DNA from: Echinarachnius parma
Lineage: Eukaryota; Echinodermata; Echinoidea; Clypeasteroida; Echinarachniidae
DNA: 64,000 nt
Assembly: GCA_037951105.1 (NCBI GenBank)
Contig: JBAMJV010008904.1
Location: forward strand, 72,001 to 136,000
Direction of reading: 5' to 3'
Notes under the pieces: generated by a model
What the model was told of the DNA's origin: nothing
The model's database searches: none
What the model saw: only the letters and a program-made list of their open reading frames with translations
Program-made: the position numbers and the translations under genes
Shown here: positions 2,221-49,644 of the stretch, one piece after another
How the letters are laid out: each line of letters starts with the position of its first letter
Numbering within the stretch: the stretch's first letter is position 1

Positions 2221-2831
2221 GTAATGTACTTTAACCGACACAATATCAATGTCTAAATCTCTCAAATTATAATTATGAAATATATACCATGATAATACTG
2301 ATAGTAATAATAACACTAATATTGGTAGTAATGATAATAAAAATGATAATATTATAGGTTTTCCCATCCATTTTCAAACAATCCTAGTTCAATTTCATTA
2401 ATTGTTAATAATGCTGTTATCCGATCCGAGAACGGGGACGAATCGCGGCGGTAAATGCCACCGAGCCGGGATCCGGGCCGGTACCGAGAATTGAGAAATA
2501 TTCAGATAATTTTCGGAAAATTTGGCGACCCATTTTCTCCAGTAATAATTGAAAATGTGTATGTTTGACAGTCCATTAAAGTTGTGGAATTCAAATAAAA
2601 AGTGGGGGAATTAATATTGTTCACTTTATGAGTGGTTATTTTAGAGAAATTCTTGGTTCGTTACTTCGTTCGTCGAAAATTGAACAGGACGCGCAAAATT
2701 TCTAGTCATTTAAACACGATATTGTAGACGGATGTGCACACAAACTCCAACATTATTCCTCTGTGTGGATAGGATGATTGTTTATGAGGGCAAAATAATT
2801 CACAATAAATGTTTTTTTTTTCTGTGCTTAG
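2221..2831 (+). other. Intron between EGF 1 and SRCR 1
   Basis: It holds an AT-rich TAATAA-type microsatellite (about 2278-2356) and a short GC-rich block (about 2420-2490). The same intron recurs almost unchanged at 5227-5843, including microsatellite and GC-rich block, showing that the duplication copied introns as well as exons. Confidence 0.8.
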
Positions 2832-3140
2832 GTGACCTGCACCTGGTGAACGGTGCTGGGTTTCATGAGGGACGAGTGGAGATCTGGTACAATGGGGTGT
2901 GGAGCACGATCTGTGACAATTATTGGAGCAGTGATGAGGCACGGGTTGTATGCAGGCAGCTTGGCTTTGAAGACAGAATAACCTACCGGAATGGTGCCTA
3001 CTTTGGAGAAGGCACCGGGACAATCTGGCTTGAAAATCCCGAATGTGGTAGCGCAGAGAGTCGTCTGATGGACTGTCCACAAGCAACGTTTGTCACCAGT
3101 TCCTGCCTGCATAGTAGAGATTCTGGTGTTGAATGCTCAT
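2832..3140 (+). CDS. SRCR domain exon 1
   Basis: This 309-base phase 1-1 exon (103 codons) lies between a CTTAG acceptor and a GTAAGT donor and encodes one whole SRCR domain. It begins DLHLVNGAGFHEGRVEIW and contains WSTICDN, VVCRQLGFED, GEGTGTIWL, SRLMDC and SGVEC. The six cysteines (TIC, VVC, PEC, MDC, SSC, VEC) give the group A pattern. SRCR domains are extracellular ligand-binding modules of scavenger receptors. Its 3' half resembles SRCR exon 4 (46 kb away) more than the neighbouring SRCR exon 2. Confidence 0.95.
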
Positions 3141-3213
3141 GTAAGTTAATATTTCACAATTAACCCTTTCCATACTAATATTAACTGACAAAAGGCTGTT
3201 GAGGAATTACCCA

Positions 3214-18628: not shown

Positions 18629-18687
18629 TTGGTCTACACTCAGTTGGTCTACAACTCATTTGGTCTACAACTCATTTGGTCTACTAC
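18629..18687. repeat. GGTCTAC array, left partner
   Basis: Four TTGGTCTAC words with ACTCA spacers. The complement (GTAGACCAAATGG) recurs three times at 20445-20487. The pair interleaves with the inverted repeat 17330-19035 rather than nesting neatly. It resembles the larger GTCTAATG arrays at 28425-30414. Confidence 0.65.
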
Positions 18688-19891: not shown

Positions 19892-20666
19892 ATGTACAAT
19901 GTGAATGGAAAAATGGGAATTTTATAATATCGGGTTTAGAAAAGAATGAAAGGTTGAATTTTTACAAAGTTGGTATCAACCTGTACAGGAAAGTGAGAAG
20001 AATGAGCTTGCTAATTATCTTTTTGATATCTTGATTATTTTCTGAATTATGATTATTAGAAAAATATTGAAATATGTAAATTTATGCAAATGAGTAAAAA
20101 AGTTTCATTTTAAACTTCAAATCATGTATTTCATGAAACTTTACACATGGATCATTCCAAAAATGGAACAAAACTACAGAAAAATAAAACTTCAATTTTT
20201 CCGAAAAAGTTTCACTTTTCAAAGAATGGCCCTTCAAAGGAATATATCATCGGGTTTCACAAGAATATAACAAAATGTATATGCGGGAGTTTACAAGCGG
20301 AACAAATTATGGACCATATGAAATATGGGGGATAATATTTGCATGGGTACTAAACCATCATGATTTTGTTATAAATGAGGACTATGGGAATAGTAAAGTT
20401 TTAAAGTGTCGTTATGTCATAAGCCCCAGAATTTATCATTTGCTAGTAGACCAAATGGGAGTAGACCAAATGGCTGTAGACCAATCGGCAAGTTACCATT
20501 AAAGTTTATAAAGGTTAGGGGGAAATCATGGAATTTTATTATAGTGCAATGATTCCCTGCACAGTTTTATTATCTAGAAAATGTTTTTTCCTCTTCAATG
20601 ACAACCCAAAGTTGGGTGTGCAGTTAATACACAGGTGCGGTTTATACACCGGCAAATACGGTGGTG

Positions 20667-20936: not shown

Positions 20937-21794
20937 AAGAATATCATAACTTATCTGACTCACAAGGACAGGCATCCACTTCACAAGAAAGCAGGAGTCT
21001 ACAGAATACCATGCAAATGCAGTCAAGTCTACATTGGGGAAACGGGCAGAAATCTGGAAACACGACTAAAGGAACACAAGACCAGCTACAGACTCAGCGA
21101 TTGGGACAAGTCAGCCATCGTCAAGCACGCACAACAGCACGAACACGTCATTCAATGGGACGACAGCAAGCTCATCACCACCATCAAACATTGGAACACA
21201 CGCCGCATCCGAGAAGCCATCGAAATTCACCGCCACAACACAGTACCTCAAGATACAGGATTATACATCAGCGACATCTGGAAACCACTCATCAACAAGG
21301 ACACAAATAGACCGCCGACACAGCCTACACAGCCAGCCACACATCACCCACCGCCACCCACAGAGGAAACCGAGCAGCCTAGCGCCACTCAAATCCGCAA
21401 CCAGCACACCGAAATGCAACAGCCAGTCAGCCAGCCAACCGTACACCACCCGCTGCTACCCGCAGAAGAGCCTGGCGTCACCCGCATCCGCGACCAGCGA
21501 GCCGAGAGATTACAGCGCCGCCAGCGTCAACAGCCAGCCAGCCAGCCAGTCGAACATCAAACGCCGCCACCCGCAGAGCAGCCTTGCGTCACCCACGTCC
21601 GCGACCAGCGAGCCGAGAGATTACAGCGCCGCCAGCGTCAACAGCCAGCCAGCCAGCCAGCCGAGCATCAAACGCCGCCACCCGCAGAGCAGCCTTGCGT
21701 CACCCACGTCCGCACCCAGCGAGCCGAGAGACTACAGCGCCGCCAGCGTCGGCAGCACACACAACGCGTCGCCGATAGCGCTCCTAATCGATAG
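20937..21794 (+). CDS. Penelope-like element fragment: GIY-YIG endonuclease plus Pro/Gln-rich repeats
   Basis: The frame is open from 20937 to a stop at 21792-21794. Residues from 20955 read LTHKDRHPLHKKAGVYRIPC, then KCSQVYIGETGRNLETRLKEH, matching the GIY-YIG endonuclease at the C-terminus of Penelope-like retroelements (GVYRIPC and YIGETGR motifs). After WKPLINKDT the protein becomes Pro/Gln-rich with a 37-residue (111-base) unit repeated about three times (start points near 21491, 21602, 21713; core RDQRAERLQRRQRQQ). The reverse transcriptase part is absent upstream, so this is a 5'-truncated copy. GC content is clearly higher than in its surroundings. The endonuclease would nick target DNA in an active element. 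A longer ORF in another frame over the same bases is a shadow. Confidence 0.75.
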   Translation, partial: KNIITYLTHKDRHPLHKKAGVYRIPCKCSQVYIGETGRNLETRLKEHKTSYRLSDWDKSAIVKHAQQHEHVIQWDDSKLITTIKHWNTRRIREAIEIHRHNTVPQDTGLYISDIWKPLINKDTNRPPTQPTQPATHHPPPPTEETEQPSATQIRNQHTEMQQPVSQPTVHHPLLPAEEPGVTRIRDQRAERLQRRQRQQPASQPVEHQTPPPAEQPCVTHVRDQRAERLQRRQRQQPASQPAEHQTPPPAEQPCVTHVRTQRAERLQRRQRRQHTQRVADSAPNR

Positions 21795-21855
21795 TACGTC
21801 ACCCGCGTCCGCAACCCCTAGCCTTATAGCCGCGCACGCCAACAGATCCCCACTC

Positions 21856-21885
21856 CTGACGACGGATAGTCAATCTATTCGAAAC
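21856..21885 (+). ncRNA. Hammerhead-ribozyme-like core, weak
   Basis: CTGACGA is followed by a stem GGATAG/CTATTC with loop TCAAT and then GAAAC. This is the order of a hammerhead core, and Penelope-like elements are known to carry hammerhead motifs. One extra C separates CTGACGA from the stem, and the outer helices were not identified, so activity is doubtful. Confidence 0.3.
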
Positions 21886-21928
21886 GTCGAGTCCCTCCTA
21901 CTATCCACCCTCTCCTCGCAATACCAAC

Positions 21929-22312
21929 AGTCCTTTCTAGGACTATTAACAGTCCTTTCTAGGACTACCAACTGTCCTTTTTAGGACTCTCCTAGAAAGA
22001 ATACCAACAGTCCTTTTCAGGACTATCCCAACAGTCCTTTCTAGGACTAACAACAGTCCTTTCTAGGACTACCAATTGTCCTTTTTAGGACTCTCCTAGA
22101 AAGAATACCAACAGTCTTTTTTCAGGACTATCCCAACAGTCCTTTATAGGACTACCAACAGTCCTTTCTAGGACTATCAACAGTCCTTTCTAGGACTACC
22201 AACAGTTCTTTTTTTTTTTTTTTTTTAGAACTCTCCTAGAAAGAATACCAACAGTTCTTTTCAGAACTACACCAACAGTCCTTTCTAGGACTACCATAGT
22301 CCTTTTCAGGGC
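21929..22312 (+). repeat. Array of 15 short hairpins resembling histone mRNA 3' stem-loops
   Basis: AGTCCT-TTCT-AGGACT or close variants occur about 15 times with CCAAC before and ACTACCA-like sequence after. Examples start at 21929, 21951, 22009, 22033, 22055, 22138, 22276 and 22297. Stems are 6 bp and loops usually 4 pyrimidine-rich bases. Two units carry AGTTCT/AGAACT, a matched change on both sides of the stem, and one has AGTCCT/AGGGCT, kept by wobble. A spacer CTCTCCTAGAAAGAATACC recurs three times, so there is also a higher-order repeat of about 105-130 bases. It lies 135 bases downstream of the Penelope-like ORF and may be its 3' untranslated region. Confidence 0.8.
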
Positions 22313-22416
22313 TTACCAATCCACCCATCTCACATGGTGTACCCGTAAACCACACGTATTATATACACCACCATGGAAACCGATACTTACAAGCAACATT
22401 TATCTGATAATGTACA

Positions 22417-23525: not shown

Positions 23526-26500
23526 TCACCGCCGGAGGGGTATTTGGACTCGGTGATGGGTGATGGAATTTGACATCACGGGATGGATTCGGCACATCCA
23601 CAGACGGACCGGGTGTGTCCTTGGATCGTGGTTCGTTGTCAAAGTGGATTCATCTAGGTTCGACATCGTCGAGGTGACGTCGATTTCTGCGCAAGACACC
23701 TCCATTTGGCGTCTCAACGAGGTAAGACCGTGGTTCCCGACATTGCTCACGAACGGTAGCTGGGAACCAGTGTCCTGTCTTGTGGTCCTGGACTCTGACG
23801 AGTTGACCTGGTGTGAGAGGTTGCAGATCATGAGCAGTCTTGTCATGATGGAACTTCTGTGTCTCTTGTCTCCGCTGCATACGATGGTAGACTTCATCGC
23901 GAGCTGGAGCACGGTTGCGGATCCTTGTTGGAAGGTTGTCCTTCATCTTCCTGCCGTATAGAAGCTCTGCCGGGCTAGGAATCTCGCTGTCAATGGGGGT
24001 GGCACGGATGCAAAGAAGTGCCATGTTGGGATCAATGTTACTCGCTTTGGCTTTCTTGAGCACGTTCTTCACCGTCTGGATGCTACGCTCGATGAAGCCA
24101 TTGGACTGTGGGTAGTGCGGTGAAGATGTGACATGGCAGAATCTCCACTGTGTACTGAAGTCCTTGTACACTGCTGAGTCGTACTGTCTGCCATTGTCAC
24201 TGATGACGCGATCTGGGACTCCCTGCTCGGCGAATATCTGCTTAGTCGCGTTGACTACAGCTGCGCTCGTGCATTCTCTCGGCAACTTACGAATGAAGGG
24301 GAATTTGGAGTAGTAGTCGCAGATGATCAGGAAGTTGTCTCCTTCAAAATAGAAGAGATCGGTACCAACCACTTGCCAAGGTCGACTGGGAACCTCGTGT
24401 TACAATAGGCTCTCAGAGGGATTGGAGGGCCTGTAAGTCCTGCAAACTGAACAGTTCGCTGCCGTCGCCTCGATGTCTTGGTTGATTGAAGGCCAGTAGA
24501 CTGCGCCTTTGGCCCGTAGTCGCATCTTCTCTGTGCCCTGGTGCCCTTCATGTAATTTGGACATGATGTAGGATCGCATACGTCCGGGAATAACGATGCG
24601 TTCTCCCTTCAAGATCAGGCCATCCTCTACTGACAACTCATCTCTAAATGGCCAGAACGAATGTAACAGTTTTGGAACATCACGTCTCTGTTCCGGCCAG
24701 CCATGGACGATCACGTCGCGCAGGGCAGCAAGATCCGGATCATTCGAAGTCTCCTGTCGCAGCTGGCTGAGACGATCAGGGGAGAATTGGACGAAGTGTA
24801 TCATGAGATCGAGTTCAATGTGGTCATTGTCCTTGACAGGCGAGCGTGACAGGCAGTCTGCCACTTGGACATCCTTTCCGATTCTCATGTCGTATGGCTG
24901 CAAACGCATTATCATCCTTTGGAGGCGAGGGGGTGCAGCTGTGAGAGACTTGCGGAGAATCATTTCCAAAGGCTTGTGGTCTGAGTGGACCGTGAACTGC
25001 CTGCCGTATACGTACGTGCGGAATCTTTCACATCCGAAGACCACCGCGAGAAGCTCCCGTTCGATATTTGCATACCGCTTCTCTGTATCACTGAGCGATT
25101 TTGATGCGTATGCGATTGGCTTGTTGTCTTGCATCAGGGTGGCACCTAACCCATGCATCGATGCATCAACTTGGATCAATGTGTTTTTCGTGCTGTCGAA
25201 GTATGCGAGTGTTGCGTCCTTGCAAATTCGGTCGCGTAGATCGTCAAAAGCATGCTGATGTGACTGTGTCCACACGAAGACTGCCTCTTCTTTAAGTAGC
25301 TCTCTGAGGCTGGCAGTCTGGGATGACAAGTTGGGGATGAAGGAGCTGAGAAAAGTCACCATCCCCATGAACTCGCGAAGCTGAGTCTTGTTTTCTGGTG
25401 GTGCCATCGACTTGATTGAGTCCACCTTCTTGGGATCTGGGTGGACCCCTTGTGCGTCATATACTTGACCAAAGAATTCAATCCTTGGAGCCTTGATCAA
25501 GCATTTCTGGCTGTTGAACTGCAGACCATGCTCACTTGCGATGCGCATCAGGCCATGGAGGTTCCTGGCATGTTCCGCTTCAGTTGCTCCAAAGACAATG
25601 ATGTCATCAGCGATTCCTATGACGCCACTGCAGCCTTCCAGAATCTGGTCCATTCTCTGCTGGAAGAAGTCCTGTGACACAGATAACCCAAAAGGCATCC
25701 GGGTGTACCTGTATCGACCAAACGGGCTGTTAAAGGTCGTCAAGAATGAGCTCTCCTGGTCCAACTTGATAGACCAATATCCGCTCTTGGCGTCGAGCTT
25801 GCTGAAGTACCGAGATCCTGCTAGCTTGTGAGTGATCTCTTCTGTCGTGATTGTGCGATAGTGACAACGCTGTATAGCTTGATTCAGTTCCTTTGGGTCC
25901 AGGCAGACTCTCAGGCTTCCGTTTCCCTTGCGGGCAATAACCATACTGTTGACCCACTGTGTCGGTTCCATAACCCTTGCGATCACTCCTTGTGCTTCCA
26001 TACTGTCCAGTTCCTGCTTGAGTTCATCACGGATGTGGATTGGACAGCGGCGTGGAGCATGAATCACAGGCTGAATGTCTGACTTGAGAGTGATGTGGCA
26101 TTCACCTTCAAACTCTCCAATATGATCAAACTGCCTGGGGTATTGTCGGATCAGTTCCTCCGTTGAATTCAGATCTGTCGAAGTAGTGCGCTTGATGTTG
26201 CTGATGTTCGTGTGCATTGTTACCAGCTTCAGTTGCAATGATGTTTTCAGTCCTATGATAGCAGGTCCCTCGGATTCAACTACGTAGAACACATCCGTGG
26301 ACCATGGAGAATTGTTGTACCTGCAGGGGAGCACTATCGACCCGTAATGCTTGATCTGCGTTCCGTTGTATGCCGTCAGCTTGGCATTAGTGTTGCGTAC
26401 AAAACTAGGCTCAGGAAACCCATCGGCTGTGAGATGATTTGGATACATCCCGCGAAACATGCGTACGGGCAAAGTGTTCCCTTCGGCACCTGTATCAACC

Positions 26501-27483
26501 TTTGACCGGATTCGGGCTGTCCTCTGCCCTTCAAACTTGATTTCAACATACGTCATTGCAGAATCAGATCTGTCATCTTTGTCCACGGCACTTATGTTTG
26601 AAACAACAATCTCTTCAAAACTCAGAGCATCGAATACCTCCTCAAGTTGGGCAGTATGCGTGGTGTCGTCAATGGTATCCACTCTCTGGTGCTGCCGATT
26701 TCTATATGAGTTTTGTCGCTGACGTGGAGGGTCACGACGGGTAGGACGATTGGCTGGTTGCTTTGAAACAGACCGCGACCGACAGAACTTCTGCCAATGA
26801 TTTTGCTTGCCACATTTCTTGCACGCTGTACCAAACGCTGGACAAATGTGACGTGGCTGTCGAGGATGATGGCGTCCACAGCTTTGACATGCACTTTGCT
26901 GAGGACGGGCTGCTATTGCATCAACCGCTTTGTTGTCTGGTTGCATGCGGGCTAGCTGTGCCATATGAGTTTGTGATGCTTCGTAGGTTCTCGCAATTTC
27001 CAGTGCGTTTTCCAGTTTCAGGGATTTGTCTTTCCCCAACAAATCCTTCTGTATGTCAGTGTACCTTGTACCAGCGATGAACTGCTCAATAACACGCTCT
27101 TGGAACTCCATGTCATCACGGAAATCACAGGTGTATGCATGCAGCTTCAGGCGCGACATGAAATCATTCGCAGTTTCTCTCTCCTGCTGAACAAATTTCT
27201 GTAGATACAGTCTGGCCACTCGGAAGTGGGTTTTTGGCTGAAGTTGGCTCTCAAACTTGCTCCATACCACTGCAGGATCCTTCTTGTTTTCCTCAGAAAG
27301 GCCCCATGAGTTGTAGAGCTTGAGTCCAGTTGCCCCAGCAAACAACAAAACGTGGTCAACTTGCTTGGTTTCGGTAACATTCTTCACAGAGAAATAAAGT
27401 TCACATTGTTGGTGAAAAATCTTGATAGCACTTGACCTATCTGGGTCATTCCGGTCCATACGAGGTGTAATTGACTCAGTCAT
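23526..27483 (-). CDS. gag-pol coding region of the inner Ty3/gypsy element
   Basis: Read on the minus strand: an N-terminal gag-like part (MTESITPRMDRNDPDRSSAI), a CCHC-type zinc knuckle region (CQSCGRHHPRQPRHIC, then CKKCGKQNHWQKFC), an aspartic protease motif (VDTGAEGNTLP), reverse transcriptase with YFSKLDAKSGYWSI and the catalytic ADDI box, RNase H with the IQVDAS and VHSDHKPLE motifs, the integrase zinc finger (HEGHQGT...CSVC), and an integrase core with ISDNGRQYDS and YPQSNGFIERSIQ. Gag and pol share one frame over most of the length, as in several Ty3/gypsy lineages. About one break is apparent overall. The proteins would make the particle, copy the RNA and integrate the DNA; for this copy the region is treated as a fossil. 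Confidence 0.9.
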
Positions 27484-28424: not shown

Positions 28425-30414
28425 TAAACCCCCACTTGGTCTAAACCTGCTTCGTCTAATATCCACTTCGTCTAATCCTACATAGTCTAAACCCATTTCG
28501 TCTACAACCACTTGGTCCAATAGCCGGTTCGTCTAATAACCATTTGGGCTATACCCTTATCGTCTAATATCCACTTGGTCCAAACCCACTTCGTCTAATC
28601 ACCATTTCATCAAATTCCCGTTTGGTCTAATTGACAGTTGGGCTAATGCCCACATGGTCTAATGCCCACATGGTCTAATGCCCATTTGGTCTAATGACCA
28701 TTTGGTCTAATGACCATTTGGTCTAATGGAAGTTTGATATGATATAGGTGTTACAACGAATGTTTTCTTTCCCACTCGTATACAAATACAAAAGGGGGGG
28801 GGGGGATAATTGTACATGTCATTCCCCACCTGGTGAGGCGGGATGTATCCCACTCATCCTCCCGTTGCCTGTTTGACGATATACCATTTTATGGAACCTG
28901 TTTTTTTTAAAGGTACCTGATTATAACGCCCACTTGTTTCCTTTTAGGTGGTCAATATGCACCGTTTGATGAATAGTGGGAAAATAGATACAATAGATAT
29001 TATCTATTATAGATATTATCTATTTTCTCTTCGGTGGTGTATGAAGGTCACCTGATTGTAATGGCCAATTATTTTTCTTTGATACACAGGTTTCGTCTCA
29101 CTGTGGCTAAATATCCATAGAGATATAATTACGGGTGCGCTTCGTTATTCCGAAGGTTCGCTATTCCTAAAATGAAATCGGGTTCGTTATTCCGAAGGTT
29201 CGGTACTCCTAAAATGAATTAGGGTTTGTTAATCCGAAAATGAAATTGGGTGTGTTTCATGGGCCCCCTCCCAAATCAATTTAAATCATGGCTTTTATCT
29301 AATTTGATTGGAAAAGAGAGTAAAACAAGAAAACTCAGATTGCACAGTTTCAATTAAAACAATGCAAAAGCTCCTTAACGGGGGGGGGGGGGGGGGGGGG
29401 GCACCCCCTCCCACACCCCCTTTAGCAAAAAGCTAGATCTGCCCCTGCCCTTAGTTGCTATTTATGATGAAATACATACAATTCAGACAAATAAAATGTT
29501 AGAATTAAGATATTTTGGACTGATATCAAGCAGCAAAATCTAACTTTATGACATAATTATAATTATATAATATCAAATTGATTTTGGTTTAATTTCATGG
29601 TTTTTTTTTACATGAGAAAGATATAAATATATCTCAAATATCTAATTCTTATTGCACTGTTTTACAAAGAAAAATAAAATCACTTTTGAGGTAATTCATT
29701 TCAGATTATAACAACATATTACAAATGATTCTTATACAATTTTACTAGAATTTTAAAGCCACTCTTTGCCCCCTCCCCTTCTCCCACACCCCCATGCAGC
29801 CACGGCAATTAGAATAAGATTGATCCCCTTTCCCAAGACCACACTGCTCAAAATAATTTGTTTAGGCAACATTCAAATTCAAAAAATCAAATTCTTTTCT
29901 ACGTCGTATTTTTTAATAACCCTAATTTCATTTTAGGACTAACGAACCTTCAGAATAACGAACCCGATTTTATTTTCGGATCAACGAACCTTCGGAATAA
30001 CGAACCTTCCGAATAACGGACTGTAACCATAATTACAACCTTATGAAATCGTTCATACGGTATACAGGTGGTGGCCACCACACAGGTCAGTGTGGGCGAT
30101 CGTTAGACCAAATGGGAATTAGACTAAATGGTCATTAGACCAAATGGGCATTAGACCATGTGGGCATTAGACCATGTGGGCATTAGACGAAATGGCATTA
30201 GACGAACTGGTATTAGACGAAGTGATAATAGACGAAACGAGGAAAAAAAAAAGTAGACGAAGTGACAATTAGCCCATTTGGTGATTAGACGAAACGGCAG
30301 TTGCCTAAATGGGCATTAGACCTAGTGATGATTAGACCAAATAGGTTTAGCCGAAGTGAAGTTAGACGAACTGATGATTGGACCAAGTGGTATTAGACCA
30401 AGTGAATATAAACC
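28425..30414. mobile_element. Foldback element with GTCTAATG satellite arms, in the leader of the outer LTR element
   Basis: The left arm (about 28425-28735) holds about 18 words of the type TTTGGTCTAATGCCCA with TTCGTCTAA variants; the right arm (about 30105-30410) holds the complement (ATTAGACCAAATGGTC). CTCCCATCGG flanks both sides (28415-28424, 30415-30424), a 9-10-base target duplication as made by Mutator-like or foldback elements. No transposase was found. A second palindrome-armed segment lies inside (29117-30040). Confidence 0.8.
29117..30040. mobile_element. Nested element with TTCGTTATTCCGAAGG arms
   Basis: GGTTCGTTATTCCGAAGGTT repeats near the left end (29141-29220), and CGAACCTTCGGAATAACGAA near the right (29940-30020). 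Outer ends ATAATTACGG / CCATAATTAC are also inverted. A G run lies at about 29381-29401. No ORF. It sits between the two arms of the GTCTAATG element. Confidence 0.7.
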
Positions 30415-41945: not shown

Positions 41946-43199
41946 GCTATTGTCATGCCCTAGACCAGTGGTATAAGCATTCCAACATCACTTCAGGGTC
42001 TTTAAAAAAAACTACAGGGTGTCCAATAAAACAATGTAAAAAAATTGAAAGTTGGGGGTGCGTTTTATACACAAGTGCGTCTTATACACGGAGTTTTACG
42101 GTACATGCAATATGCGGACATGAGGGAAATACAAAAAATGGCGTACTTACAGGGTTTAAAAAGTCCTTTATTTCCAAGTAGAAGTCGTTTTATAGAATGA
42201 AATCTTCACAGATAGTCTGGAATATTTTATTGATTTATGCATGCTAACCCTAGAAACAAAAAAACAATCGGTCTACGTATAGCCTGACTAGGCAAAGTAA
42301 CGGAGAGCTTGGCGTAAACTCCCTGGGAAACTCCCTGCCGTGACCTCATCGCAAACCAGACCAATCGACATGCATATCTAGTACTTTTCAGCTGCGTAGT
42401 TATTGTAACGTAAAATGATAATCCACCAGCCGATTGACAAGACCCGCAATATCAGCTTTGCAATCGGTGTATACTTAATGCATGTGTGCCAAGCGTTTTT
42501 GACATGGACCTTTAAACACATCAGTGCAATTAATGTAGGCTGAACAGTACAGTACTGTAATGTGTGTATGTGGGCCAGGCAACCTCTCACCCCAGCCATG
42601 GACCCCCGAGTATGAGCGGTGCAGAGAGTGAGATTGATTAGCACTGCGCTACAGTAGCTAGGGTGAACGAATTTACAGACGGGCGAAGGATCATGAATGG
42701 GACAATAAAACACGACCCGCGTTTTATTATTTGGAGGTTTATAACCAATTATAACTCCATGAAAAGGAGGTTTCAAGCCCTAAATTTTTCAGGCAAGCTG
42801 GTAAATGACATTTTCTTTCATGTAAGACAATAACCTCGCAACTTTTAACCCGTTCACTTCGAGATTCTAAAATTCCCATAGACTTTGTACACAACCACCC
42901 GGTTCCCGTAGTCAAGGGGTTAAAATTTGGCTTGCAAAAGGCGGACAGTCCCTTCAATGGCGCAAAATTCACCTGAAAAGGTACCCTTTTAAAAATTTGT
43001 TTGATGAGTGCTGAAAACCAACCCTTTTTAAAGGAAAACGTCAATGACGCCTATAGCTGAAAATGATACCCTTCAATACTTTTTTTGGACGCGGGTCCGT
43101 AGCCAGTCATGTTGGGAGTGACCTCCCCCCCCCCCCTCCCCACCCCCCGGGGATCTACAAAATAAATGTATGTTTTTTTGTTTTTCTTTCTGTGCTCAG
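41946..43199. other. Unassigned sequence with a 71-base TTAA micro-element, up to the SRCR 3 acceptor
   Basis: 42849-42919 is a TTAA-flanked micro-element (CCCGTTCACTTCG against the complement of GTAGTCAAGGGG). Around 42050-42105, GTGCGTTTTATACACAAGTG and CTTATACACGGAG resemble a segment at 20615-20660. A C run precedes 43150. Sequence like the other EGF-SRCR introns resumes just before the CTCAG acceptor at 43195-43199. Confidence 0.5.
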
Positions 43200-43508
43200 G
43201 TGACCTGCGCCTGGTGAACGGTGCTGGGTTTCATGAGGGACGAGTGGAGGTCTGGTTCAACGGCAATTGGAGCACAATCTGTGACAATAGTTGGAACGAT
43301 AACGAGGCACGGATCGCATGCAGTCAGCTTGGCTTTGAGGATAGAATGAACAAATATTCTGGTGCTCACTATGGGGAAGGCACGGGGACAATTTTGTTTG
43401 AGAGTCTGAACTGTGATAACACAAAGAGTCGTCTGATTGACTGTGATGGATCAACGTTTGCTACCAGTTCCTGCCTGCATAGTAGAGATTCTGGTGTCGA
43501 ATGCTTGT
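43200..43508 (+). CDS. SRCR domain exon 3
   Basis: This 309-base phase 1-1 exon lies between CTCAG and GTAAGT. It encodes DLRLVNGAGFHEGRVEVW, WSTICDNSWNDNEARIACSQ, LGFEDRMNKYSGAHYGEG and SRLIDCDGSTFATSSC, ending SGVECL. Six group A cysteines are present. It is the most diverged of the four good SRCR exons (Trp to Leu in GTILFE, NDNEARIACS for SDEARVVCR). It should join EGF 3 (8925) upstream in frame across the 34-kb intron. A longer frame running past the donor into the foldback is not real coding. Confidence 0.93.
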
Positions 43509-43538
43509 GTAAGTTTATATGTTACAATGAATTATTTC

Positions 43539-43932
43539 GATTAAAAGAAGGCAAAGAAATGGGATTCCAACGGGATTCGAACCCGAGACCTCCGGATTGC
43601 TAGACCGGTGCTCTTCCGACTGAGCTATAGAAAACCCTAGACGGTGCTCGTCCCTGAAACCCCTTAAATCTCATTGTTTGAATTAATTATTACAAAAAGT
43701 TGTATCGCTTCGGTGATCCCTCGCATATAACCCCAAGTTGATTTGTTTCCTTCGGGTTTATGTCACGTTATAATAGCTTCTGACCATTCTGGCAATGAGA
43801 ATTAAGGGGTTTCAGGGACGAGCACCGTCTAGGGTTTTCTATAGCTCAGTCGGAAGAGCACCGGTCTAGCAATCCGGAGGTCTCTGGTTCGAATCCCGTT
43901 GGAATCCCATTTTCTTTGCCTACTTTTAATCA
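43539..43932. mobile_element. Foldback element with tRNA-like arms
   Basis: 43549-43676 and 43793-43921 are inverted copies of about 128 bases differing at only a few positions. Each arm holds a complete tRNA-like block (TATAGCTCAGTCGGAAGAGC, CCGGTCTAGCAATCCGG, GGTTCGAATCCCG) plus AGGGACGAGCACCGTCTAGG. Weaker pairing (GATTAAAAG / CTTTTAATC) extends both ends. The 116-base loop matches the region upstream of the tRNA-like blocks in the earlier introns (for example 8440-8560), which have only the right arm. It starts 31 bases after the SRCR 3 exon. No ORF. Confidence 0.85.
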
Positions 43933-48815: not shown

Positions 48816-49157
48816 CCTATGATTAGTTTATAAATTGTTTTTATGTTAAATTATTATGCAGATCTCACTTGAATGGAATTTGAATTAAGCAGTGCTCAGG
48901 AAATTCACCCTGATAATTATTTCACTCACATAGAAACTGTTTTTGTTTTATTTCCTTATTTGTGTGTTTTTATTCAGGTTTTACTTTACAAATATTGTGC
49001 TCTCTGTGTAAATTTAAAAGAAATATAAGAAAAATAACAAGTTAAAACAATGTTGATAATAACAATCTCATATTTACCCTAGGATATGTAAGTATTTTTT
49101 TAATACCACCCTTGAAAAAAATTCTGGCTCATCAAGTTTTGTTCTTTTTGTGCTCAG

Positions 49158-49466
49158 GTGACTTGCGCCTGGTGAACGGTGCTGGGTTTCATGAGGGACG
49201 AGTGGAGATCTGGTACGATGGCACTTGGAGCACAATCTGTGACGATTGGTGGAGCAGTGATGAGGCACAGGTTGTATGCAGACAGCTCGGCTTTGAGGAC
49301 AAAATAACCAACCGGAATGGTGCCTACTTTGGAGAAGGCACCGGGACAATCTGGCTTCAGAATCCCAGCTGTGGTAGCGCAGAGAGTCATCTGATGAACT
49401 GTCCACAAGCAACGTTTGTCATCAGTTCCTGCGCGCATAGTAGAGATGCTGGTGTGGAATGCTCGT
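49158..49466 (+). CDS. SRCR domain exon 4
   Basis: This 309-base phase 1-1 exon lies between CTCAG and GTATGT. It encodes DLRLVNGAGFHEGRVEIW, WSTICDDWWSSDEAQVVCRQ, LGFEDKITNRNGAYFGEG and NPSCGSAESHLMNC, ending AGVECS. Six group A cysteines are present. The 3' half (NGAYFGEGTGTIWL, GSAES, PQATFV) is nearly the same as SRCR 1. It can splice either to EGF 5 directly (phase 1 to 1) or, if usable, to the degenerate SRCR that follows. Confidence 0.94.
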
Positions 49467-49644
49467 GTATGTTGAAACTTCTCATTAACCCCTTCTGTAG
49501 TGATGACAAACCTGTTTAACTTTTTCACACAAAATGCACATATGGGGTGTGCAAGTTGCATAATATAAATGTAATGTATATTTGATGTATACTGTAGGAA
49601 TATACATTATAACATTTGGCATAGACATATTGTTCTCATGTTAG

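Follow-up and report, generated by a model that had tools for sequence, protein, structure and literature searches.

Results and Discussion

The Penelope-like Element and Its Surroundings

The window, i.e., the whole 64-kb stretch of DNA analyzed here, contains a 5′-truncated copy of a Penelope-like element (PLE) at 20958–22405 of the plus strand, as delineated by locus matches and by the mapping of insert ends. The 3′ part of the PLE open reading frame (ORF), recognized from its translation and from the homologue in locus L022, occupies 20958–21794 on the same strand, where a GIY-YIG part is followed by Pro/Gln/Arg-rich repeats and the frame is open down to the stop at 21792–21794. An array of 15 histone-like stem-loops (21929–22313, plus strand), defined by a unit listing and covariance-model matches, lies on the sense strand of the element, 134 nt 3′ of this stop, and is located in the pseudo-LTR (pLTR) of the PLE. 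The copy terminates in a "tail" that extends 32 nt beyond the A of an ATG (22373) at which the ORF of the next tandem unit would start.

The assignment to the PLEs is based on the presence of a reverse transcriptase and a GIY-YIG endonuclease in one ORF, the naturally open 963-aa frame of L022 (Pfam RVT_1 6e-09, GIY-YIG 7.9e-05), and on tandem or partial tandem copies with a pLTR and a tail. In the tandem copy of L022, the 963-aa ORF begins, with ACCACCATGG, about 60 nt beyond the last hairpin, and the units of L020, L022, and L026 repeat every 3432 bp. The array region has at least 45 matching places in the 1.2-Gb genome (40 of 2766 candidates scored), and the family is very abundant.

A preliminary description of this DNA had linked the array to a Penelope-like element, and this link is confirmed: all 20 loci fetched (7–10 kb each) match the window through the GIY-YIG end of the ORF, the Pro/Gln/Arg-rich repeat, and the array, the match starting at window position 20958 in 19 of them and at 20974 in one. 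These loci were picked by their likeness to window 21000–22400 and are not an unbiased sample. That the array always follows a GIY-YIG ORF, which the preliminary description put as a question, holds for the 20 likeness-picked loci but not for truncated copies such as L034, which was fetched for another reason and carries a PLE end with the array and no ORF. Likewise, the array is a 3′ region of the element in the sense that it lies 3′ of the stop, but in tandem copies it is at the same time located 5′ of the ORF of the following unit. A plain satellite was considered and rejected, because the array is joined to the GIY-YIG end of the PLE in 20 of the 20 loci, chosen by likeness as they were.

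No AATAAA or ATTAAA signal is found between the stop and the next ATG in L022 or in window 21795–22405. A hammerhead ribozyme at the pLTR/ORF junction is known from other PLEs, and we do not treat it as obligatory. In L022:4100–9300 there is no Rfam hammerhead match at E ≤ 5, and the core CTGA.GA is absent from L022:5301–6300, although a minimal form could escape both searches. Five other GIY-YIG loci, drawn from 17 GIY-YIG matches (150 of 426 candidates scored), show no stem-loop array in the 1.0–1.6 kb read of each and no hammerhead match at E ≤ 1.

Elsewhere in the window, 240- and 1027-aa ORFs on the minus strand (23650–27483), 1.2 kb downstream of the array, have by eye the look of a Gypsy-type retroelement. 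Two tRNA-Ala (AGC) genes lie in opposite orientation 200 bp apart at 43561–43635 (minus) and 43834–43908 (plus). Exon-like ORFs at 2732–3163, 43166–43603, and 49112–49519 resemble SRCR domains by eye, which suggests a large SRCR gene or gene cluster. Several arrays of related 15–16-bp repeats resembling TAGACCAAATGG on one strand or the other occur at 18629–18684, 20445–20484, 28431–28727, and 30103–30405.

Structure of the Hairpin Array

The 15 units counted on the plus strand at 21929–22313 agree with the number given in the preliminary description, while several of its generalizations about them have to be narrowed. A 6-bp stem, which had been ascribed to every unit, is fully paired in 13 of the 15; the units at 21973 and 22077 have a T·T mismatch at the first pair and are left with 5 bp. 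Twelve units have all six pairs standard and a loop of 4 or 5 nt, among them the units at 22113 and 22298 with one G·U wobble each, so that two units, and not a single one as had been counted, keep their pairing by wobble. The paired change AGTTCT/AGAACT described for two units is indeed found at 22204 and 22253. In the former (22204–22232) the paired stem encloses 17 T, and in the latter (22253–22268, plus strand, 21.0 bits) the loop is UUUC.

The statement that only the first pair departs from the histone form is correct for the A-U pair present in 13 of the 15 units, but it overlooks T·T in the other two and the UUCU loop in seven. Four-base pyrimidine loops are the rule (TTCT in seven units, TTTC in three, TTTT in two), the exceptions being TTAT, TTTTC, and T17 in one unit each. 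The flanks are more variable than had been stated: CCAAC directly precedes 10 of the 15 units and a different sequence the other five, with a terminal AAC in 13, and the ACCA-like sequence that should follow each unit amounts to an ACC or ATC start in eight of the 15 and to ACCA in five. The commonest unit is CCAAC-AGUCCU-UUCU-AGGACU.

Three 13-nt copies of TCCTAGAAAGAAT occur in the array, after the units at 21973, 22077, and 22204. They are an addition to the preliminary description, which did not mention motifs of this type, and are identical in 12 of 13 positions to the host form of the histone downstream element (HDE), TCCAAGAAAGAAT. All three stem-loop and motif pairs are on the plus strand. 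The first (21973–22002) has a UUUU loop and an HDE-like motif at 21990–22002 and is the top model match of the window, with 26.4 bits; the second (22077–22106, motif at 22094–22106) scores 25.2 bits; and in the third (22204–22246, motif at 22234–22246), T17 separates AGTTCT and AGAACT in this copy.

The array also shows tandem and higher-order repeats with periods of 22 and about 104. Folding of 21915–22330 yields −129.3 kcal/mol, as compared to a mean of −71.9 kcal/mol for shuffled sequences (z −12), and none of 100 dinucleotide shuffles is as good; a row of palindromes alone would give the same result. When the whole array is folded, the probability that a unit forms its own stem is at most 0.38 for 10 of the 11 units examined. 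The usual T form of the HDE-like motif has a 10-nt complement in the core of the stem-loop, with which it pairs at −10.5 kcal/mol in the window, versus −6.5 kcal/mol for the hairpin. With the A form of the motif, the stem-loop stays the best fold in L019 (−6.5 kcal/mol), while at the AGTTCT unit of L022 the competing fold is at −5.3 and the stem-loop at −3.9 kcal/mol. RNA folding during synthesis may differ from the whole-array fold.

Likeness to Host Histone 3′ Ends

The host genome has at least 99 histone-fold (PF00125) matches and at least 71 Rfam Histone3 matches above the cut-off (75 candidates scored), the latter including the Tc1-like loci L055 and L056 discussed below. The SLBP RNA-binding domain is also present (E 3.2e-11). 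Six sub-threshold matches to U7 snRNA were obtained, none of them convincing and none with TTCTTT in the stretch examined. A histone-type 3′ end is characterized by SLBP binding, an HDE complementary to U7, and RNA that stops 4–5 nt past the stem with no poly(A). A typical host histone 3′ end, among 20 Histone3 regions read, is that of L037, with CCAAC-GGCTCT-TTTT-AGAGCC-ACCCACATTCC-AAGAAAGAAT.

To compare the array with these signals, a covariance model was built from 15 host histone-type 3′ ends and 10 non-PLE pattern finds, with the stem given and no PLE sequence included. Ten of the 15 ends lie within 3 kb of a histone-fold match, one is absent from the compared list, and four lack such a match within 3 kb, two of these being H1-like and one H2B-like by eye; L049, L050, L052, L053, and L054 were excluded before alignment. 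The four best matches of the model on the 64-kb window are all in the array, with 26.4, 25.2, 21.0, and 20.0 bits (E 0.0006–0.02), and the best match outside it has 12.7 bits (E 1.2); these E-values are approximate, but the bit scores are far apart. On the 20 loci, the stem-loop plus HDE segments of the arrays again rank on top, with up to 36.1 bits, and the best match clearly outside the arrays reaches 17.4 bits. Among 11 other loci, only L034, with its PLE array, yields significant matches. The resemblance to histone 3′ ends noted in the preliminary description is thus substantiated and extended to the HDE-like motif, and as a likeness between sequences it is significant.

The array also departs from the host signals in several respects. 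The histone stem-loop consensus is GGYYYU UYUN ARRRCC; a G-C first pair is absent from all 15 units, and seven of them have the loop UUCU. Two of the three units just before an HDE-like motif have T·T at this position, where all 25 model sequences have G-C, partly by choice because they were selected by a GG...CC pattern. The UUCU loop has C where all 25 model sequences have U, at a position that the selection pattern leaves free. The spacing between stem and HDE is 4 nt in the array and 10–13 nt in the host, although the motif itself matches the host HDE at 12 of 13 positions, and in 15 of the 30 arrays the middle one matches it at all 13. With Rfam Histone3 (RF00032) the array scores 18.6–21 bits, below the gathering score of 34.

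Conservation among Array Copies

Thirty arrays were excised, each with 14–16 hairpins according to a relaxed unit finder. Three HDE-like motifs are present in 29 of them and two in one, and 89 of 90 slots fit TCC-N-AGAAAG-R-AT with only T or A at the free position; the one deviant slot, the third of its array, reads TACAAGAAAGAAT. In 15 of the 30 arrays, from eight loci, the middle motif has the sequence of the host HDE, TCCAAGAAAGAAT. The exact module AGGACT-CTCC-WAGAAAGAAT-ACCAAC occurs 2200 times genome-wide, while the reversed control gives 0. Its W position is T in 99 of the 100 modules listed out of the 2200 and A, as in the host, in one, so that the host-identical A form is a minority and probably derived.

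The 30 arrays comprise 432 units, among which AGTTCT-TTTT-AGAACT occurs 28 times. Forty-six of the 432 were recorded out of register (AATTGT-T7-AGGACT for TGTCCT-TTTT-AGGACT), and another 13 have TGTCCT, in which the first pair is broken. Among the remaining 373, a broken pair is seen in 10, all rare forms occurring once or twice, and the common forms differ just by Y-Y/R-R changes in pairs 3–5 and by loop letters. Nucleotide diversity (π) is 0.0105 in stems and 0.0247 in linkers for 23 young and related copies, in a run where the codon-position labels were out of phase with the ORF, unit 22113 was mis-set, and unit 22204 fell outside the stem class. The conservation of the stems is accordingly suggestive only. 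It had been argued that the paired changes reflect selection on structure, for which the two paired changes and two wobbles of the window speak and against which stand its two broken first pairs. Across the copies, paired changes are few and neighboring, and the formal support for covariation is accordingly weak.

Insert Ends and the Template RNA

The ends of inserted copies were mapped with the array-to-ORF junction of L022 as query against the window and 21 loci (the 20 and L034), leaving out array-to-array matches and matches of L021 that start inside the query. Out of 36 array ends, 15 lie at −12 to −6 and 15 at +28 to +32 relative to the A of the ATG, five run into the next ORF, and one is at a contig edge. 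In the window, the two zones around the A of ATG 22373 fall within 22361–22405 (plus strand). This pattern corresponds to the PLE tail signature, which Frangieh et al. ascribe to internal reverse-transcription initiation at two sites (PMC11167929). In L009, L013, L020, and L025, the flanks outside opposite ends are complementary by eye, as would be expected of target-site duplications that enclose an insert bearing an inverted partial copy.

Inserted copies thus terminate about 50 or 90 nt past the last hairpin. As these ends lie beyond the array, the template RNA ran through it, which proves the existence of uncut template RNAs. We have also considered the array as the 3′ terminus of the template RNA; this was rejected because the inserts end 50–90 nt further on. 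The downstream ends, together with the 4-nt spacing between stem and HDE, argue against a simple 3′-end processing at the array.

Histone-Type Signals in Other Mobile Elements

A stem-loop plus HDE pattern was found at 108 places genome-wide, the reversed control giving 0. For the 100 listed ones, the distance to a PF00125 match is at most 3 kb in 61 and more than that in 39, in a comparison that used 70 of the 99 PF00125 matches, the omitted ones being on none of the contigs of the 39. Judged by upstream codons, some of these 39 resemble H1 or H2B genes, so that not all are mobile elements. A stricter pattern of two canonical stem-loops in tandem occurs at four places, all in L055 (C2418:115900–118400) and L056 (C3877:80900–83000). 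These are copies of one element, 98.8% identical over 1811 bp and with different flanks, whose transposase has a DDE_3 match (1.2e-19) and a sub-threshold Tc3-type HTH. Beginning 22 nt after the transposase stop, there are three canonical stem-loops in tandem, at a spacing of 24 nt, and an HDE; both loci exceed the Rfam Histone3 cut-off, with 39.2 bits.

A second lineage is represented by L065 (C415:48100–52500), with two copies in one contig and an open transposase piece of 181 aa (DDE_3 2.9e-15) that is 49% identical to the L055 protein over 176 aa; here, too, stem-loops with an HDE follow the transposase stop. L067 (C8927:36000–38700) has an interrupted frame and the same signal, and is 78% identical to L065 in DNA over 462 bp. 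All four loci match GGYYCTYYNNAGRRCCAC plus AGAAAGA, that is, a canonical stem-loop with a spaced HDE. When the 3′ region of L065 was used as query, further partial relatives were obtained, and many of the matches are histone genes (40 of 43 candidates scored).

Similar signals are found in repeats of other kinds. L062 (C3573) and L066 (C1887) belong to a multi-copy gene family, also present on C6661, C8020, and C9599, that ends in a GGTTCT/AGAACC stem-loop and an HDE; the ORF pieces adjacent to the stem-loop that were tested in L062/L066 have no Pfam match. On C1887, a DNA polymerase B-type match lies on the same strand about 15 kb from the L066 signal, and it is possible that the L066 element is Maverick-like. 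L058–L061 (C1874, C3492, C6002, and C1136) are short noncoding, partly palindromic repeats with GGTCCT/AGGACC and an HDE; just upstream of this stem-loop region, L059 and L060 have, as seen by eye, an inverted relative of it. GGCCCT/AGGGCC with an HDE occurs away from histone-fold matches in L063 (C269, with the same text on C1423 and C4724) and L064 (C3538). The stems of the gene family and of the short repeats differ from those of the histone genes by paired changes, within a search pattern that left pairs 3 and 4 free as Y/R, as would be expected if SLBP selects them.

By their sequence, mobile elements of this genome bear histone-type 3′ signals, and the complete signals in unrelated mobile elements are a stronger finding than the PLE array. 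They make the idea of the preliminary description, that RNA of the element could bind the stem-loop-binding protein or be processed without a poly(A) tail, much more plausible. A literature search of titles and abstract openings, with coverage that excludes most subscription journals, returned no mobile element with a histone stem-loop.

Possible Function of the Array

Taken as sequence, the data presented above show the PLE array to be a multi-copy imitation, in the pLTR, of the host signal for histone-mRNA 3′ ends. A function in the histone pathway that includes some effect on 3′ ends or stability is, in our estimate, the likeliest explanation, with close to an even chance of being correct, and it overlaps with binding of SLBP alone, considered below. 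In the proposed mechanism, the sense RNA of tandem PLE copies would bind the host SLBP at the array. By means of the HDE-like motifs, part of the read-through RNA could be cut by the U7 machinery or otherwise stabilized, giving an S-phase-type mRNA without poly(A) for translation. The RNA that reads through uncut would serve as the template, since the start of reverse transcription lies immediately 3′ of the array. In such a division of labor between RNAs, the host machinery would do the job that a hammerhead ribozyme may do at the same place in other PLEs.

A neutral origin of the array, as a short palindrome repeated in tandem inside the element and similar to histone signals by chance, seems to us rather unlikely. 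Hairpins, paired changes, and the HDE-like motif, as an inverted half unit, would then result from duplication, template switching at palindromes, and homogenization, and the periods of 22 and about 104, the varying number of units (14–16), and the exact complementarity of TCCTAGAAAG to the CTTTCTAGGA of the units fit such an origin. The stems are just modestly conserved in young copies, and with insert ends downstream, reverse transcription would retain the array whether useful or not. However, an inverted unit predicts AGAAAGGACT where the array has AGAAAGAAT, and the latter, together with the CCAAC flank, G2-C15, the Y/R arms, and the U-A closing pair, matches the host signals. The score far above background with a PLE-free model and the fit of 89 of 90 HDE-like slots to one motif, with T or A alone at the free position, also speak against chance.

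Binding of SLBP to the array with no cleavage, for export, stability, or S-phase translation of the read-through RNA or as an SLBP sponge, is in our view unlikely as the whole explanation. It would account for the many stem-loops, the short HDE spacing, and the uncut templates, but not for the HDE-like motifs kept in 89 of 90 slots, and the complete, normally spaced signals of the Tc1-like elements imply that a cleavable form occurs in mobile elements here. We consider it quite improbable that the hairpins are an RNA or DNA structure that has no relation to SLBP and serves the PLE's own protein, e.g., in RNP assembly, the choice of template, or the synthesis of the second strand. The array does lie directly upstream of the two insert-end zones, read as reverse-transcription start sites, and the Anolis PLE protein is thought to bind near here, with a structured ribozyme at the junction (PMC11167929). 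On the other hand, the Anolis element can insert in vitro without RNA upstream of +20 (PMC11167929), the five other GIY-YIG loci are free of an array in the stretch read, and the histone-like flank and the HDE-like motif would be left without a reason.

A broader reading is that mobile elements of different classes in this genome, namely the PLE, two Tc1-like lineages, a palindromic noncoding repeat, and a multi-copy gene family, took up histone-mRNA 3′-end signals, their RNAs being made, protected, and translated like those of histones in S phase and in eggs and cleaving embryos, and that in the PLE a host-dependent switch replaced the ribozyme. We put this forward tentatively, and give the reading as a whole somewhat less than an even chance. 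If true, these would be the times when insertion into dividing chromatin pays most. A working signal would tie transposition to S phase via a known host factor, and would point to a way in which tandem RNA could be resolved by a PLE that has no hammerhead ribozyme. The elements also offer a candidate set of natural SLBP/U7 substrates with altered stems, loops, and spacing, and give a hint that mobile DNA borrows the cell's histone-message machinery.

Comparison with Known Systems

With the histone mRNA 3′ end (RF00032), the array shares the CCAAC 5′ flank, the 6-bp stem xGYYYU/ARRRCx, the 4-nt pyrimidine loop, and the purine-rich AGAAAGAAT downstream of the stem-loop. It differs in the A-U first pair, in UUCU as the commonest loop, in the HDE spacing of 4 nt, in the presence of many units, and in a score under the Rfam gathering cut-off. 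The Tc1-like L055, L056, L065, and L067 resemble the PLE as mobile elements whose ORF is directly followed by histone-type signals, which are tandemly arranged in L055, L056, and L065; unlike the PLE, they are DNA transposons with canonical stems and HDE spacing, and few copies were found.

Like the Penelope/Poseidon-type PLE PAc of Anolis (PMC11167929), the present element combines RT and a C-terminal GIY-YIG in one ORF and forms tandem copies with pLTRs and two insert ends about 40 nt apart (the tail); it also has inverted partial copies and apparent target-site duplications. In contrast to PAc, long Pro/Gln/Arg-rich repeats follow the GIY-YIG part, and the pLTR contains 14–16 histone-like stem-loops and HDE-like motifs, with no hammerhead ribozyme found. 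The hammerhead ribozymes of PLEs and retrozymes have the same place in the element as the array, and both could resolve tandem read-through RNA, the difference being that the array would use host proteins.
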